This document shows positions 3,260 through 12,340 of a stretch of 40,347 bases of DNA, piece after piece. The position numbers were made by a program, and so were the translations under genes. Positions within the stretch are counted from its first letter, which is position 1, and each line of letters opens with the position of its first letter. The DNA is from a bacterium (GTDB lineage Bacteria; Patescibacteriota; Gracilibacteria; Peribacterales; Peribacteraceae). Under the pieces are notes generated by a model. The model was not told where the DNA came from. It worked only from the letters and a program-made list of their open reading frames with translations, and made no database searches. Location of the stretch: NCBI GenBank assembly GCA_029558515.1, contig JAKQEM010000016.1, positions 1 through 40,347 of the forward strand, written 5' to 3'.

Positions 3260-4531
3260 ATGGACATTCGTTACCAGATCACCGGTGGTATCCCGTTGCA
3301 AGGAGAAGTGTCCATCGGCGGGTCCAAGAACGCGGCATTGCCCATGATTGCGGCCGCGGTCCTCGTGAGTGGCGAAACGGTGCTGACCAACGTGCCGCGC
3401 CTGCGCGACGTGGAAGTGATGCTGGAAATACTGGAATTTCTGGGTGCCGTCACGCAGTTTCAGGAGGGGACCGTCCGTATCAATACGCAGCAGTTGACCA
3501 ATCGCCCCATTCCCGGCGAGTTTGTTTCCCGTCTGCGCGGGTCCATCGTGCTTTTGGGGCCGCTCCTCGCGCGTTTCGGCGTGGTGGAGATGTCGTACCC
3601 CGGCGGCTGCGTGCTGGGGAAGCGGTCCGTCGCCGCGCACTTGGAGGCCTTCGTCCAGATGGGTGCGCGGGACATGAGCACGGGTGATGTGCTGCACCTG
3701 CAAGGGGCGCTCAAACCCGGCCGGGTCATCCTGCCGGAATTTTCCGTGACTGCGACCGAGAACGCGATTCTGGCGGCGGCGCTCACGCCCGGCGAAACGC
3801 GCATCGATATCGCGGCTGCCGAGCCGCACGTGCAGGAACTGTCACGCATGGTGCACGCAATGGGTGCGGAGATGAGCGGCATCGGCACACACACCGTCAT
3901 GGTCCGGGGCGTGCGCGCCTTGCGACCCGTCGAGTGGTGTGTGTGCTCCGATTATCTGGAGGCGGGGTGTTTCGTGGTGGCGGCGCTGGTCACAAAAGGA
4001 AAATTGCGACTGCGGAACGTCGAGGATGAGCATCTGCTCTCTTTTTTGGATGTCGTGCGTCGTGCCGGTGGCGTCTTGAAGTACGATGCAGCCGAGAAGA
4101 CGCTGCTCGTCGACGGCGAACTGTCGTTCCTCAATGCCATGAAGATTCGGACGAACATCTTCCCCGGTTTCCCCACGGATCTGCAGGCGCCGATGGGAGT
4201 GGCCATGACGCAGGCCAAGGGCGTGAGCCGCATCTTCGAGCGCCTCTTCGAAGGACGGCTGGCGTACCTCTACGAGTTGGAGAAAATGGGCGCGCACGTT
4301 GAGATTCTCAATGCGCATGAAGCGCTGGTCATCGGCCCTACGTCGCTTCGGGGACGGATCGTCGCCAGCAATGATATCCGTGCGGGGGCCGCCATGGTCC
4401 TGGCTGCGCTGGCCGCCGAGGGTGAAACGATCGTCACCGACGTCCGCTACATCGAACGCGGGTATGATCGGCTGGATGAAAAACTGCGTGCCGTCGGAGC
4501 CGTCATCCATCGCCAGGTAGCGGAGGAATAG
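3260..4531 (+). CDS. murA: UDP-N-acetylglucosamine 1-carboxyvinyltransferase
   Basis: MurA transfers enolpyruvate from phosphoenolpyruvate to UDP-GlcNAc, the first committed step of peptidoglycan synthesis in the cytoplasm. The 423-residue protein carries GGSKNAALP (Lys23/Asn24), the fosfomycin-sensitive catalytic cysteine in YPGGC (Cys117), the conserved PTDLQAP stretch, and a C-terminal IERGYDRLDEKLRAVGA. The ATG at 3260 is preferred because homologues begin at this MDIRYQITGG segment. Upstream in-frame sequence would translate the octamer repeat array. The gene is complete and of normal length. It is followed by a separate small gene with its own -10 box, so it is probably monocistronic or weakly coupled to holB. 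Confidence 0.95.
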   Translation: MDIRYQITGGIPLQGEVSIGGSKNAALPMIAAAVLVSGETVLTNVPRLRDVEVMLEILEFLGAVTQFQEGTVRINTQQLTNRPIPGEFVSRLRGSIVLLGPLLARFGVVEMSYPGGCVLGKRSVAAHLEAFVQMGARDMSTGDVLHLQGALKPGRVILPEFSVTATENAILAAALTPGETRIDIAAAEPHVQELSRMVHAMGAEMSGIGTHTVMVRGVRALRPVEWCVCSDYLEAGCFVVAALVTKGKLRLRNVEDEHLLSFLDVVRRAGGVLKYDAAEKTLLVDGELSFLNAMKIRTNIFPGFPTDLQAPMGVAMTQAKGVSRIFERLFEGRLAYLYELEKMGAHVEILNAHEALVIGPTSLRGRIVASNDIRAGAAMVLAALAAEGETIVTDVRYIERGYDRLDEKLRAVGAVIHRQVAEE

Positions 4532-4579
4532 AGGAAAAACGGCGTGACGCCTCTGCTGGTCATTCCCATCGTCTTCCCG

Positions 4580-4585
4580 TATCAT
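4580..4585 (+). promoter_or_regulatory. Candidate -10 box for the MBL-fold gene
   Basis: TATCAT lies 7 nt before the ATG at 4593, which fits a leaderless start. Confidence 0.45.
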
Positions 4586-4592
4586 CCCGACA

Positions 4593-5120
4593 ATGTTGAC
4601 CTTCACCTACTCCGGCAAGACATCCGTTCGCATCACGGGCGGTTCGCTCCCCGTCACCTTCTTCCCCGACGCACCCGTCAGCGGCGGGCTGAGCCTGCTG
4701 CCTTCGCCGCAGGAATTCCCCAGCCGCGAGGTCATTTCCTGGCCGGGAGAGTATGACGTCGGCGGCATCACCGTCCGGGGCATCGGCCATAAGGATGGCC
4801 AGAAGGTTTCCTTTCTAACGGAAATCGACGGCATCCGCATCGCGTTTCCGGCATCTCCTCCGGAGGACTGGTCCGATCACGATCTGGAACAATTGGGGGA
4901 TGTGCACGTGCTCGTCATGACTGCGGAGGACCCCAAGCGTTTCCAGAAAATGCTCGATGACATCGATCCCCGCGTCCTCATACTCACTCCGGCGGCCGAT
5001 GGCACCATCGATCAGGATGTCCTGAAAGCCTGCGGTGCGGTGGGACAGGAACAGGCGTCTGAGTATAAGATGAAAGGCAGCCTGCCGCAGGAGGGGCGGG
5101 ATGTGGTGGTGTTTGGATGA
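4593..5120 (+). CDS. Metallo-beta-lactamase-fold protein lacking the metal site
   Basis: The 175-residue protein aligns by eye along its length with the small UlaG-like Zn-dependent hydrolases common in CPR bacteria. It shares the block WPGEYDVGGITVRGI (about residues 50-64), FLTEIDGIRIAF (about 73-84), LEQLGDVHVLVM (about 96-107), IDPRVLILTPAADG, and the C-terminal CGAV...KMKGSLPQEGRDVVV. The signature HxHxDH metal ligands that normally lie between the first strands and the GEY block are absent. The later HLGD and MHY positions read FPAS and TPA. Known members use these residues to bind two metal ions, so this copy is inferred to be catalytically dead, perhaps a structural or regulatory paralogue. 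No frameshift explains the loss. Confidence 0.6.
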   Translation: MLTFTYSGKTSVRITGGSLPVTFFPDAPVSGGLSLLPSPQEFPSREVISWPGEYDVGGITVRGIGHKDGQKVSFLTEIDGIRIAFPASPPEDWSDHDLEQLGDVHVLVMTAEDPKRFQKMLDDIDPRVLILTPAADGTIDQDVLKACGAVGQEQASEYKMKGSLPQEGRDVVVFG

Positions 5121-7280: not shown

Positions 7281-8753
7281 ATGAAGAAATACTTCCTGAT
7301 TATTCCGGCGGTTCTCAGCTGCATTGGCGTCGCCTACGCCGGTTCTCTCTCGCCCTCCGCTTCCCCCGCCGCCACAAGTTACACCCTCTCCGACATCTAC
7401 ACCCGCCTCACCACGAACGCGCTGTCCACCGCGGGAAACCATGACTTCACGCCCTCCGGTTCCCCCGCCGCCTCACACTACACCCTCACCCAGGTCTACG
7501 ACGCCATCCCGACGATCACAGCGAATCTGGTGAAGCTTGGCACTGCCTACCTCGGTGTTGAAGGGACGCTCACGCCGGACGGAGGCACCGCCACTACGGC
7601 TGCGGTCTTCACCGGCTCCACGGCACATCTGACCGCCGACTGGACGCTCGACACCGGCACGCTCACGCTCGCATGCGTCACTTCCATCTTCGATGGGACG
7701 GCGAACAAAGTTCCCGATACGTACGATGGCGCGGGCGACGGGACCAACCGCTTCTGCATGACGGACAGCGGGGATGCCGCCGCGGGCGACCTCGTCTCGG
7801 GGAAGATCGCTTGGGTGGATGGCAGCGAAATCACTGGTTCCATGACCAACGTCGGTGCGCAGACCATCACGCCGACAACGAGCGACACAACGATTACCGC
7901 CGGCTACCACTCCGGCGCGGGCTACTGCGCGGGAGACGCAGACTTAATTACAGCTAACATCAAATCAGGAATTAACATCTTTGGAGTTGCAGGCGATAGC
8001 AATGTTGTTGACACAAGCTCAGGAGATGCAACCGCAGGCAACATTCTTGCAACCAAAAAAGCTTGGGTTGATGGAACAGAACTCACAGGAACAATGCCAA
8101 CTCCAACATTATCTTTTGCCAATGATACTGTAAATGCAGGATATTATTCTGCTACAACATTATCAGCCATAGACACAGATTTAGCAGTAGGAAATATTAA
8201 AAGCGGAACCACAATCTTTGGAGTAGAGGGAACATATGTGGGTTCTTATGGAATTCCTAAAACTGAACAAACTACTTCTTATATAGATTATGATGACGGC
8301 TATTATGAAAAAGGAGCTCCTAATTCTGGAGATCGTTATACTGACAATGGAGATGGTACCATTACTGATAATGCTACAGGTTTAGAATGGGTAAAATCTG
8401 GTTATGCTGATACAGACACAACACCCGCTACAACGTATACTGCTGATGGTTCCTGGAGAAAATATACTTGGAATAATGCTTTGTTATATGCAGAGCGCTT
8501 AGATTATGCCGGCCATACTGATTGGCGATTACCTAATGTCAAAGAAATACAATCTATAACAAATTATGAAGTATATAATCCGGCAATTAATACAACTTAT
8601 TTTACAAATACCAGTTCTGATTATTATTTTTCTAGCACTACAGCTGTTAATGGTACAGGGTATGCATGGTGTACTAATTATTTTAATGGAAGCATTGCTA
8701 TTAATGACAAGACAGCTGCTTTTTATGTGCGTCCTGTTCGGGGTGGGCAATAA
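7281..8753 (+). CDS. Secreted DUF1566 (Lcl C-terminal) protein, compositionally chimeric
   Basis: 490 residues. A signal peptide starts at MKKYFLIIPAVLSC. Next come two copies of a (S/A)xSPAA(T/S)xYTL module (about 27-75), then repeats of the type SGDAxAGxxxxxKxAWVDGxExTGxM (about 165-190 and 245-275) and IKSGxxIFGVxG (twice), as in tail-fibre-like and CPR surface proteins. The C-terminal part is a DUF1566 domain: TDNGDGTITDNATGLEWVKS, GHTDWRLPNVKEIQSI, YYFSSTT..., and terminal YVRPVRGGQ. The first about 220 codons are GC-rich like the neighbours. From about 7942 the bases and codon choice turn strongly AT-rich until just past the stop, although the reading frame and repeat modules continue. 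DUF1566 has a C-type-lectin-like fold and is a reported target of diversity-generating retroelements, but no reverse transcriptase is visible here. The start is fixed by the signal peptide. Confidence 0.8.
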   Translation: MKKYFLIIPAVLSCIGVAYAGSLSPSASPAATSYTLSDIYTRLTTNALSTAGNHDFTPSGSPAASHYTLTQVYDAIPTITANLVKLGTAYLGVEGTLTPDGGTATTAAVFTGSTAHLTADWTLDTGTLTLACVTSIFDGTANKVPDTYDGAGDGTNRFCMTDSGDAAAGDLVSGKIAWVDGSEITGSMTNVGAQTITPTTSDTTITAGYHSGAGYCAGDADLITANIKSGINIFGVAGDSNVVDTSSGDATAGNILATKKAWVDGTELTGTMPTPTLSFANDTVNAGYYSATTLSAIDTDLAVGNIKSGTTIFGVEGTYVGSYGIPKTEQTTSYIDYDDGYYEKGAPNSGDRYTDNGDGTITDNATGLEWVKSGYADTDTTPATTYTADGSWRKYTWNNALLYAERLDYAGHTDWRLPNVKEIQSITNYEVYNPAINTTYFTNTSSDYYFSSTTAVNGTGYAWCTNYFNGSIAINDKTAAFYVRPVRGGQ

Positions 8754-8771
8754 ATTATCATTTAGATAATT
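8753..8771. terminator. Hairpin at the end of the AT-rich block
   Basis: AATTATC (8753-8759) and GATAATT (8765-8771) form a perfect 7-bp stem with loop ATTTA, overlapping the last base of the DUF1566 stop codon. There is no long T tract. It could be a weak terminator, or a hairpin of the sort found just after variable repeats of diversity-generating retroelements. It marks the return to GC-rich DNA. Confidence 0.4.
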
Positions 8772-8802
8772 GAGCAATGTTCTGCACTTGCCACTCTCTG
8801 CC

Positions 8803-10038
8803 ATGAGATCTCTCTCCGCCTCCATCATTCTTCTCCTCCTCTTGGGGTTCCTCCCCCCGGCACCCGCCCTCGCCTCCACGACCGACGGCACCATCGACGC
8901 TTCAAACCGCTACGCGTGGAGCGAGAACGCGGGGTGGATCGACTTCGGGACAACGGAGGGCAACGTCCACATCACCGACTCCGCCCTCACCGGCTACGCT
9001 TGGGGAGAAAACGTGGGATGGATTTCCCTGAACTGCTCGAATGATTCCTCCTGCGGAACGGTGGACTACAAGGTGACGAACAACAACGAAGGGGCGCTCG
9101 GCGGCCATGCCTGGAGCGAGAACCTGGGGTGGATTCAGTTCGCACCGACGAATGGCGGGGTGACCATCGATTCTTCCGGCGTCTTCTCCGGCTACGCCTG
9201 GGGGGAGAATATCGGATGGATCGTCTTCAACTGCAGCAACCAGAGTTCCTGCGCGACAGCCGATTTCAAGGTGAGTACGGACTACCGGCCGACGAGCGCC
9301 AGAACTTCCTCCTCCTCCTCTTCCTCTTTAGCAGAGCAGACAACAGGTGGAGGCGGCCACGGCGGCCGCCGTGGCAGCGAGGAGGGCATGGCAGAGAAGA
9401 TCGCCGCCGCACAGGAGCAGATCCTCGCGAAGCGCGGTTTGACTTCTCCCGCATCACCACCGTCCTCCCCCTCTGTCTTCCGGGACGTCCCTTCCACTTC
9501 CTGGTTTTCTTCCCACGTGCAGGAGCTTGCCACTGCGGGCATCCTCCGCGGCTACAGCTCCCCCAATGGCACTCCCACGGGGCTCTTTGGTCCCGCCGAT
9601 CCCGTCACCTATGCCGAGATCACTGCGATCGCCTTCCGCGTCCTTAGGGAAGACCATGAAACCTCCGCGCTCGTACCAAAGAACCGCTCCGCTCGGGGCA
9701 CCTGGGCCTCCGGCATCATCGAAGCTGCCGAGGAGCGCGGTGTCCCCGTGCTCACGACCGCTCTCAATGTCCACACTCCCGCCACCCGCGCAGAGGTGAT
9801 CGCCATCCTCCTCCACCTCCTGCCCCTCGCTTCCTCCTCCGGGGAGAATCCCTACACCGATCTTCCCGCCGATCATCCCTACCGCGATATCCTTCTGCAG
9901 GCAACGTCCCTTGGGATCCTGCAGGGAGACACCTCTCCCGACGGCACGCTGCTCCATACCCTCCGCCCCGATGATCCCATCAACCGCGCGGAAGCCGCGA
10001 AGATCATTTCTCTGCTCCTTGAGTTGCGACAGCAGTGA
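8803..10038 (+). CDS. Secreted YAWSENxGWI-repeat protein with C-terminal SLH domains
   Basis: 411 residues. Signal peptide MRSLSASIILLLLLGFLPPA... (about 1-26). Four short repeats follow: YAWSENAGWIDFG, YAWGENVGWISLNC, HAWSENLGWIQFA and YAWGENIGWIVFNC (about 35-140), the second and fourth followed by paired cysteines (NCSND/QSSC). A Ser/Gly-rich linker with GGHGGRRGSEEGMAEKIAAAQEQ leads to SLH repeats (FRDVPSTSWFSSHVQEL..., VTYAEITAIAFRVL, YTDLPADHPYRDILLQ...LRPDDPINRAEAAKII). The 3' part from 9361 is near-identical in DNA to 11663-12324 of the next gene. The start at 8803 is chosen for the signal peptide; the TTG at 8770 is less likely. Role: probable surface-anchored structural or adhesive protein. 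Confidence 0.75.
   Translation: MRSLSASIILLLLLGFLPPAPALASTTDGTIDASNRYAWSENAGWIDFGTTEGNVHITDSALTGYAWGENVGWISLNCSNDSSCGTVDYKVTNNNEGALGGHAWSENLGWIQFAPTNGGVTIDSSGVFSGYAWGENIGWIVFNCSNQSSCATADFKVSTDYRPTSARTSSSSSSSLAEQTTGGGGHGGRRGSEEGMAEKIAAAQEQILAKRGLTSPASPPSSPSVFRDVPSTSWFSSHVQELATAGILRGYSSPNGTPTGLFGPADPVTYAEITAIAFRVLREDHETSALVPKNRSARGTWASGIIEAAEERGVPVLTTALNVHTPATRAEVIAILLHLLPLASSSGENPYTDLPADHPYRDILLQATSLGILQGDTSPDGTLLHTLRPDDPINRAEAAKIISLLLELRQQ
9361..10019 (+). repeat. Long direct repeat, copy A (SLH-coding)
   Basis: Nearly identical to 11663-12324. It is offset by 2302 bases at the start and 2305 bases from about 9481 onwards, with a divergent patch around 9440-9480 between linker and first SLH repeat. 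Both copies are coding and in the same orientation. This points to recent duplication or gene conversion. Confidence 0.85.
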
Positions 10039-10150: not shown

Positions 10151-12340
10151 ATGAGGTCTTCCCGATCTATCGAACGAGGAAAGGTCGTTCGAATGCCTAC
10201 GTTGAGATCAATCGCAAGAATGAGCCTCATTGTTGCCTTTTTCTTTTTCCAAACGTCCACCGCGGAAGCTGCAAGTATTGCAGGGCGTCATATTTTCTAT
10301 AACCAGTGTTATTTCGACGGAAACGACGCAGCCGCGAATGCCAACGACGACAATGCGATTGCACCGGATAAGATTGCGCATGTATATGGCACGCAAGCAA
10401 CCTTCGCCAACTACACCAGCTACAGCCGCGGCATCAACGGGATCATGGTGGATGTGAGCGATGCGACTGATCCAGCATCCATCACAGCGGCGGATTTCGG
10501 TTTCCGAATAGGCAACGCACACTCGCTCGCAACATGGACGGGTGCGACAGCTCCGACCTCCGTCACGGTGCGCTTAGGTGCAGGCACAGCCGGCAGCGAC
10601 CGTGTCACCATCATCTGGGCGAATAATGTCATCCAGAAGCAATGGCTGGAAGTGACGGTAAAAGCGACGGCGAACACGGGGCTGGCAACGGACGACGTGT
10701 TCTACTTCGGGAATGCCATCGGTGAAACAGGCAATAGCATCGTGGATGCCATCGTCGATGCCACGGATAGTTATGGTGCAAGGAATAATCCTCACAATTT
10801 TCTGGACCCAGCCACCATTACCGATGCATATGACTTCAATCGCGATCGCTTCGTCACAGTCACCGACGAGCTCTATGCTCAAAACAATGCAACCAACACA
10901 GGCTCAGCATTGAAACTCATCTTCGACCTCGTGGCTCCCGTCATCACCTCCCTCTCTTCTGACACGCCAGATGGATCCTACGGAGAAGGCTCGATCGTCG
11001 ACATCGATATTACATTCAGTGAAACTATCAATTCTGATGGAGACATCACCCTGACAATTGAAACGGGTTCCACCGATCACACCTGTACTCTGGCAATAGC
11101 TGACGGCAACCGGGGAACATGCTCCTACGTTGTGGAAGCGGGCGATGAATCGCCCGATCTGGATGTGACGTCCGTCTCGGGAACCATTTCAGACTTGGCG
11201 GGGAACGTACTCGTCAACTTCGTCCCGGAAACCGGCCTTGCTGCGAATGAAGCGATTGTGATCGATACGACAAGACCGACCATTGCTTCGTTCTCTCCCG
11301 CCGATGGCGCCGATGCTGCAGTGACGGACAATCTCATGATCACATTTGACGAGCCAGTCGGAAAGACAGGGACAGGGTACGTCACCATCTACAAATCCTC
11401 CGATGATTCCATCGTGGAGCAGATCAGTACCGCAACCGGAGCCGTGACGGGATCGGGAACAACAACGATCACGATCAATCCGACGGTTACGCTCAGCTAC
11501 AGCACCGCCTACTACATAAAGATCGATGCCAACGCATTCCCGGACAACGCGGGAAATTTCTCCGTGGGCATCAGTGACAATACGACCTGGAACTTCACGA
11601 CGGAAGACGAACCGGAAACCACAGTGACACCGGTTCCCTCCTCAGGAACGACTCCGAGCGGAGGCGGTCGCCGTGGCAGCGAGGAGGGCATGGCAGAGAA
11701 GATCGCCGCCGCACAGGAGCAGATCCTCGCGAAGCGCGGCCTCAGCACTTCCTCCCCCTCAACCTGCACCGGATCTTCTCGCTTCCGGGATGTTCCTTCC
11801 ACCGCCTGGTTCGCGTGTCCGGTCCATTCCCTCGCAGATGCAGGCATCCTCCGCGGCTACAGCTCCCCCAATGGCACCCCCACGGGTCTCTTCGGCCCCG
11901 CCGATCCCGTCACCTACGCCGAGATCCTCGCAATCGCCTTCCGCGTCCTTAGGGAAGACCATGAAACCTCCGCGCTCGTACCAAAGAACCGCTCGGCCCG
12001 CGGCACCTGGGCCTCCGGCATCATCGAGGCTGCCGAGGAGCGCGGTGTCCCCGTGCTCACGACCGCTCTCAATGTCCACACTCCCGCCACCCGCGCAGAG
12101 GTGATCGCCATCCTCCTCCACCTCCTGCCCCTCGCTTCCTCCTCCGGGGAGAATTCCTTCACCGATCTCCCCGCCGATCATCCCTACCGCGATATCCTTC
12201 TGCAGGCAACGTCCCTTGGGATCCTGCAGGGAGACACCGCTCCCGACGGCACGCTGCTCCATACCCTCCGCCCCGATGATCCCATCAACCGTGCGGAAGC
12301 CGCGAAGATCATTTCTCTGCTCCTCACGTCGCTACGGTAA
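10151..12340 (+). CDS. Secreted dockerin-like / Ig-like / SLH multidomain protein
   Basis: 729 residues. A signal segment (about 24-40) is followed by a region (about 41-260) that strongly resembles extracellular proteins of Planctomycetes: FYNQCYFDGNDAAANANDD, NYTSYSRGINGIMVDV, SVTVRLGAGTAGSDRVTIIW, VFYFGNAIGETGNS, ARNNPHNFLDP, and the dockerin-like Ca-binding loop YDFNRDRFVTVTDE. Two bacterial Ig-like domains follow. The first begins at VAPVITSLSSDTPDG. The second is SbsA/Big_5-like, beginning TRPTIASFSPADGA and ending NTTWNFTTED. The C-terminal 220 residues are the linker plus SLH repeats shared with the previous gene. Cell-surface location is inferred from SLH. The ATG at 10151 is set by a promoter whose -10 box is 6 nt upstream. 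The N-terminal similarity to planctomycete proteins suggests domain transfer. Confidence 0.75.
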   Translation: MRSSRSIERGKVVRMPTLRSIARMSLIVAFFFFQTSTAEAASIAGRHIFYNQCYFDGNDAAANANDDNAIAPDKIAHVYGTQATFANYTSYSRGINGIMVDVSDATDPASITAADFGFRIGNAHSLATWTGATAPTSVTVRLGAGTAGSDRVTIIWANNVIQKQWLEVTVKATANTGLATDDVFYFGNAIGETGNSIVDAIVDATDSYGARNNPHNFLDPATITDAYDFNRDRFVTVTDELYAQNNATNTGSALKLIFDLVAPVITSLSSDTPDGSYGEGSIVDIDITFSETINSDGDITLTIETGSTDHTCTLAIADGNRGTCSYVVEAGDESPDLDVTSVSGTISDLAGNVLVNFVPETGLAANEAIVIDTTRPTIASFSPADGADAAVTDNLMITFDEPVGKTGTGYVTIYKSSDDSIVEQISTATGAVTGSGTTTITINPTVTLSYSTAYYIKIDANAFPDNAGNFSVGISDNTTWNFTTEDEPETTVTPVPSSGTTPSGGGRRGSEEGMAEKIAAAQEQILAKRGLSTSSPSTCTGSSRFRDVPSTAWFACPVHSLADAGILRGYSSPNGTPTGLFGPADPVTYAEILAIAFRVLREDHETSALVPKNRSARGTWASGIIEAAEERGVPVLTTALNVHTPATRAEVIAILLHLLPLASSSGENSFTDLPADHPYRDILLQATSLGILQGDTAPDGTLLHTLRPDDPINRAEAAKIISLLLTSLR
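11663..12324 (+). repeat. Long direct repeat, copy B (SLH-coding)
   Basis: Partner of 9361-10019. It encodes the GRRGSEEGMAEKIAAAQEQ linker and the SLH repeats at the C-terminus of the dockerin-like protein. Most differences are synonymous. Confidence 0.85.

Follow-up and report, generated by a model that had tools for sequence, protein, structure and literature searches.

A sharp composition break inside a modular secreted-protein gene of a Peribacteraceae bacterium probably marks an in-frame replacement of its 3' part

Introduction

How can a single gene be GC-rich along its 5' part and AT-rich along its 3' part, with the reading frame running on undisturbed? The question is raised by a gene on contig JAKQEM010000016.1 (assembly GCA_029558515.1) of a bacterium from the Peribacteraceae (Patescibacteriota, Gracilibacteria). 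The window analysed here is the whole stretch of 40,347 nucleotides, read on the forward strand. An original prediction, made from the letters alone, proposed that a low-GC donor had recombined with the gene inside homologous repeat modules and replaced its C-terminal lectin-like domain, which is of the DUF1566 (Lcl_C) type. DUF1566 is a common target domain of diversity-generating retroelements (DGRs; PMC4159848, PMC6642488), and intragenic recombination has been proposed, from the modularity of DGR targets, as a means of swapping their lectin domains (PMC8144416).

Gene architecture and composition break

The protein combines a putative signal peptide and an N-terminal domain with a spacer, two repeat modules (A and B), a linker and a C-terminal Lcl_C domain, see Table 1. 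The N-terminal domain contains two SPSxSPAxSxYTLxxIYxxI-like units and is, over about 78 aa, 73% identical to its homologue in genome G054 and 72% to that in G1392. The repeat modules follow the consensus AWVDGxExTGxM ... DxDLxxxNIKSGxxIFGVxG. The PF07603 (Lcl_C) match spans residues 359-487 with an E-value of 3e-31 and 108.5 bits, against a curated Pfam cut-off of 34.9. A sequence search of the PDB gave no useful match to the protein; the AlphaFold2 model of the domain (pLDDT 74, pTM 0.72) has 8q4e as its best PDB match in Foldseek (E 5e-5), which points to a C-type-lectin fold. Neither a second copy of the gene nor a second Lcl_C was found in its own genome.

Table 1. Coordinates of the features in the window and the basis of each assignment.
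Feature	Position	Strand	Basis or remark
CDS, 490 aa	7281..8753	+	Open frame with ATG; homologues begin at the matching Met
Putative signal peptide MKKYFLIIPAVLSCIGVAYA	7281..7340	+	Read by eye from the sequence
N-terminal domain GSLSPSASPAATSYTLSDIYTRLTTN... YTLTQVYDAIPTI...YLGVEG, GC-rich	7341..7580	+	Homology to G054 and G1392
GC-rich spacer LTLACVTSIFDG...DGAGDGTNRFCMTDS	7581..7775	+	Kept in the low-GC G1218 homologue
Repeat module A	7776..7994	+	GC-rich to 7943, AT-rich from 7944; holds the left junction
AT-rich block	7944..8781	+	ML change points; 2-lnL support 7933-7947 (left) and 8770-8834 (right)
Repeat module B (SSGDATAG...IFGVEG), AT-rich	8016..8237	+	Type found after the N-terminal domain in G054 and G1218
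Linker IPKTEQTTSYIDYDDGYYEKGAPNSGDRYTDNGD	8253..8354	+	Closely resembles viral-contig proteins
Lcl_C (PF07603) domain, predicted C-type-lectin fold	8355..8741	+	Pfam match; fold from a model
AT-rich hairpin AATTATC-ATTTA-GATAATT	8753..8771	+	Directly after the stop; weak, z -1.9
Downstream GC-rich gene, WSENAGWI repeats and SLH domains	8803..10038	+	G015 likewise has the orthologue after its Lcl_C gene

The gene had been predicted to turn AT-rich near position 7942, with A/T-ended codons, and to give way to GC-rich DNA again just past its stop. This description is borne out by a two-border ML fit (lnL gain 75.6), from which the borders of the block in Table 1 are taken, and by the codon-wise profile along the gene, where GC3 falls from 79.5% (7281-7940) to 19.6% (7941-8750) and is 76.6% in the next gene. 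In 20-codon steps it lies at 70-90% up to 7940 and at 5-35% afterwards, and the switch at the left border takes place within an interval of about 15 bp. The block as a whole has a GC content of 36.7% between flanks of about 60%, and it reaches about 28 bp beyond the stop, over the small hairpin. Compared with 829-bp windows drawn from stretches of its own genome adding up to 235 kb (mean GC 54.4%, sd 5.6, minimum 37.0%), it has a z-score of -3.1, and nothing in these 235 kb is lower. Further AT-rich stretches of 37-45% GC are seen in the same genome (L057 on G000:C43 and the start of L064, G000:C35 from 32001). Low GC alone is not unique in this genome; the point is the break within a single gene.

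The left border falls inside module A, between GDAD and LITANIKSG and thus within the conserved GDADL..NIKSG..IFGV motif. The reading frame stays open through this junction and the composition break is two-sided, as in an intragenic recombinant, so that the earlier statements that the frame and a repeated module both cross the junction are upheld. The claim that the lectin-like domain alone had been replaced is right only in part: Lcl_C does lie inside the block, but so do one and a half repeat modules and the linker.

Relatives of the gene

Within the order, the gene family is matched in 4 of 74 genomes, the gene's own included; all 74 belong to one taxonomic family. G054 shares the N-terminal domain (69% identity in this comparison) and a module B at native GC, and then has a different C-terminal end, which is truncated by the contig edge and is compared here for the available part. 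G013 and G015 contain the N-terminal domain together with an Lcl_C of a lineage that differs, in the trees, from that of the window; their Lcl_C domains have a GC3 of 67% and 63% and follow without a composition break. The break is therefore absent from G013, G015 and the available part of G054, and the shift is not one that orthologues share throughout the clade. The WSENAGWI-type gene that comes next in the window does so in G015 too, with 54% identity between the two. The window and G015 also have the sequence TTGAGCA in common just after the stop, at the right border, and this seven-base match is too short to name the right crossover point.

The alignment of G013 with G015 shows that the same part of the gene changes between relatives. 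The flanks and the N-terminal domain are mostly 77-92% identical, identity goes down to about 47-68% with indels in the middle of the gene, the last 170 nt are 75-85% identical, and the DNA downstream is 95-100% identical. The last 44 codons differ at 19 sites in codon positions 1 and 2 and at 4 in position 3, against 11 and 38, respectively, in the N-terminal domain (Fisher p 2e-6). An excess at positions 1 and 2 is the pattern that DGR mutagenesis leaves; positive selection may also have produced it. Between the two loci (L029 in G015, L030 in G013) the 3' ends differ mainly in the first two positions of NNY codons, a feature known from the variable regions of DGRs. Neither a template nor an RT was found on the 82-kb contig of G015.

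Outside the order, as had been suggested, the two halves of the gene were searched separately, and each matches the same proteins: both are homologous to one family of multi-domain secreted proteins in low-GC Patescibacteria. In G1218 (34% GC) the GC-rich half is matched over all of its 221 residues at 43% identity, and the AT-rich half is matched too. G1392 (37% GC) contains the N-terminal domain, the modules and Lcl_C, and matches the AT-rich half best, at 44-50%. Parts of the architecture are shared by G453, G1232, G1125 and G232. These low-GC carriers belong to other classes of the phylum, and their sharing of the architecture provides the condition for recombination within one gene family. 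A donor was not found among the sequences searched: the best relatives are about 50-58% identical at the protein level and none exceeds about 58%, plasmid relatives reach 28-36% at most, and named phages gave no match.

A WSENAGWI-repeat secreted gene adjoins the N-domain gene in distant lineages, lying upstream of it in G553 (L034) and downstream in G015 (L029) and in the window (8803-10038). The two proteins are possibly functional partners. At the 3' ends of two adjacent secreted genes of the window there is an SLH-domain cassette of about 670 bp (9361-10030 and 11663-12335), 90% identical between the copies, which again points to duplication or conversion of domains at this surface locus.

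Links to DGRs and phages

Several members of the family are DGR targets. The N-domain genes of G1218, G1232, G695 and G792 have variable repeats (VR) at their 3' ends, with template repeats (TR) within a few kb; the TR/VR mismatches fall at template adenines in 15 of 15 cases in G1232 and 16 of 17 in G1218. RTs similar to a DGR RT of the window's own genome adjoin family genes of G1218, G1232, G695, G1125 and G444. The flanks of the other members are short, and the share of DGR-linked members is thus a lower bound. In G958, from the same class as the window, Lcl_C genes have TR/VR pairs and RTs. At one G792 locus (L104, G792:C103) two N-domain target genes flank a single template repeat and carry one variable repeat each, and no RT was detected with the query used in the 9 kb examined.

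For the window gene no template repeat was found in its own genome, with a type of query that recovers 5 of 5 known templates, and no RT lies within the window. The genome does have two DGR RTs, on other contigs and with templates and targets of their own. Each of these DGRs (L032, G000:C43:97000-106000; L033, G000:C35:22000-32000) comprises an RT and an Avd-like gene together with a template and a pair of C-terminal targets; a large AAA_5 (MoxR-like) ATPase, 848 or 934 aa long, carries one of the pair. On present evidence no DGR actively targets the window gene.

The nearest Lcl_C is found on a viral contig (L012, 58% identity over 151 aa), near terminase-, portal- and capsid-like genes, and the larger tree pairs it with the Lcl_C of the window (support 93/88). 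A first tree had placed the window in a viral group (91/89), of which the larger tree retains the L012 pair alone; a general phage origin is therefore not claimed. On L012 the Lcl_C gene (4050-4610) has 58% GC within a phage contig of 41% GC, the reverse of the contrast in the window, which suggests that the Lcl_C domain moves between genomes of differing composition.

Origin of the AT-rich part

We suggest that the AT-rich block arose through in-frame recombination with the gene of an AT-rich homologue inside a shared module, a reading to which we give a probability of about 0.8. It is the best one because both halves match one secreted family of AT-rich genomes. The cell would have started with a GC-rich gene of its own that encoded a secreted binding protein of modular build. 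The 3' part of this gene, from within module A through module B and Lcl_C to slightly past the stop, would then have been exchanged, with the frame preserved, for the corresponding stretch of a homologue. Either an AT-rich Patescibacterium or a phage with a gene of this kind could have supplied that stretch, and the crossover would have taken place in the repeat module that both genes shared. As the flanking genes are GC-rich, we infer that the AT-rich piece moved into the GC-rich gene and not the reverse. The host would have kept its signal peptide and N-terminal domain and gained a new ligand-binding tip. In its essentials this is what the original prediction had proposed, namely recombination with a low-GC donor within homologous modules, and that remains the best-supported reading; the prediction underestimated the size of the imported piece and missed the link of the family to DGRs, and the donor was not found.

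The counterpoint to a replacement from a bacterial gene is the viral-contig neighbour of the lectin domain, and the donor may have been a phage. A phage tail-associated Lcl_C protein is an unlikely source of the C-terminal piece, even with L012 as the closest relative of the domain and with the repeat module also present in tail-fibre-like proteins (58% identity in L067). Module B with YYSATTLSAIDxDL occurs in the Patescibacteria proteins of G054, G1218 and G1392 and is absent from the viral hits, named phages offer no relative, and at 58% GC the Lcl_C gene of L012 shows that this phage was not the donor. A more specific version of replacement by an AT-rich homologue is that the block formed the variable-region half of a gene targeted by a DGR and was moved without RT and template; a once diversified domain would then have been carried over and would no longer change. 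The DGR-linked N-domain genes with their adenine-specific differences, the RTs beside five family members, the TR/VR pairs of G958 and the frequency of DUF1566 among DGR targets all agree with this, and the tail of the window protein aligns with template-encoded peptides. We regard it as conceivable but not probable, and keep it as a rival only, because the genome holds no template repeat for the gene and the larger tree places its Lcl_C beside L012, apart from the N-domain DGR targets.

A chimera, in which two genomes of the metagenome were joined by the assembler, was a concern from the outset and is suggested by the state of the genome, which is in 49 contigs. It would need two joins within 840 bp, one of them in frame in a matching module and the other just past the stop, and a switch interval of about 15 bp is below the usual k-mers of assemblers. 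The contig has no N at the joins, and relatives keep the same gene order downstream; a chimera is therefore quite improbable. Still far less credible is that no transfer occurred and that the lectin domain is AT-rich through its amino-acid make-up or selection. Its tail is indeed rich in N, Y, T and D, but third codon positions show the strongest shift, and Lcl_C domains elsewhere range in GC3 from 17 to 76% or more, broadly tracking their genomes. The native GC3 of Lcl_C in G013 and G015 contradicts an explanation by composition only, which we reject. In-frame recombination with an AT-rich homologue remains the preferred reading.

Relation to known systems and implications

The window protein shares with the C-terminal domain of Legionella Lcl (8q4e) its sequence family and predicted C-type-lectin fold. 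However, its N-terminal part and modules are of another, Patescibacteria-wide type, and there is no collagen-like region. The C-terminal fold is also that of the DUF1566 targets of DGRs (PMC4159848, PMC6642488; Roux et al. 2021, PMC8144416), and homologues of the gene are real DGR targets, but the gene itself has neither a template repeat in its genome nor an RT in the window. The Lcl_C and tail-fibre-like proteins of viral contigs (L012, L052, L067) are 53-58% identical to its lectin domain or modules; they are short separate or tail-fibre-like proteins and lack the Patescibacteria N-terminal domain.

The closest parallel is the intragenic recombination proposed for modular adhesins and DGR targets (PMC8144416), where likewise a new C-terminal lectin-fold domain is set on a kept N-terminus; here, in contrast, the composition still reveals the junction and locates it to about 15 bp. 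Domain swapping as such is already known, as are DGR targets and Lcl_C proteins; what is new is a visible recent junction in such a family. Our search of the literature on GC-marked domain replacement found nothing specific.

As a tentative generalisation, which we consider somewhat less probable than even, DGR-diversified surface genes of Patescibacteria might swap binding halves between distant lineages, with shared repeat modules of the phage-tail type as the place of exchange. The domains would then spread without the retroelement, and the window gene would be a recent recipient of an orphaned domain. The precisely placed junction, together with the change in the same part of the gene between G013 and G015, provides a probable case of the proposed swapping. 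Exchanging the tip while the N-terminus stays the same may be a way for partner specificity to change, and one that can be tested.
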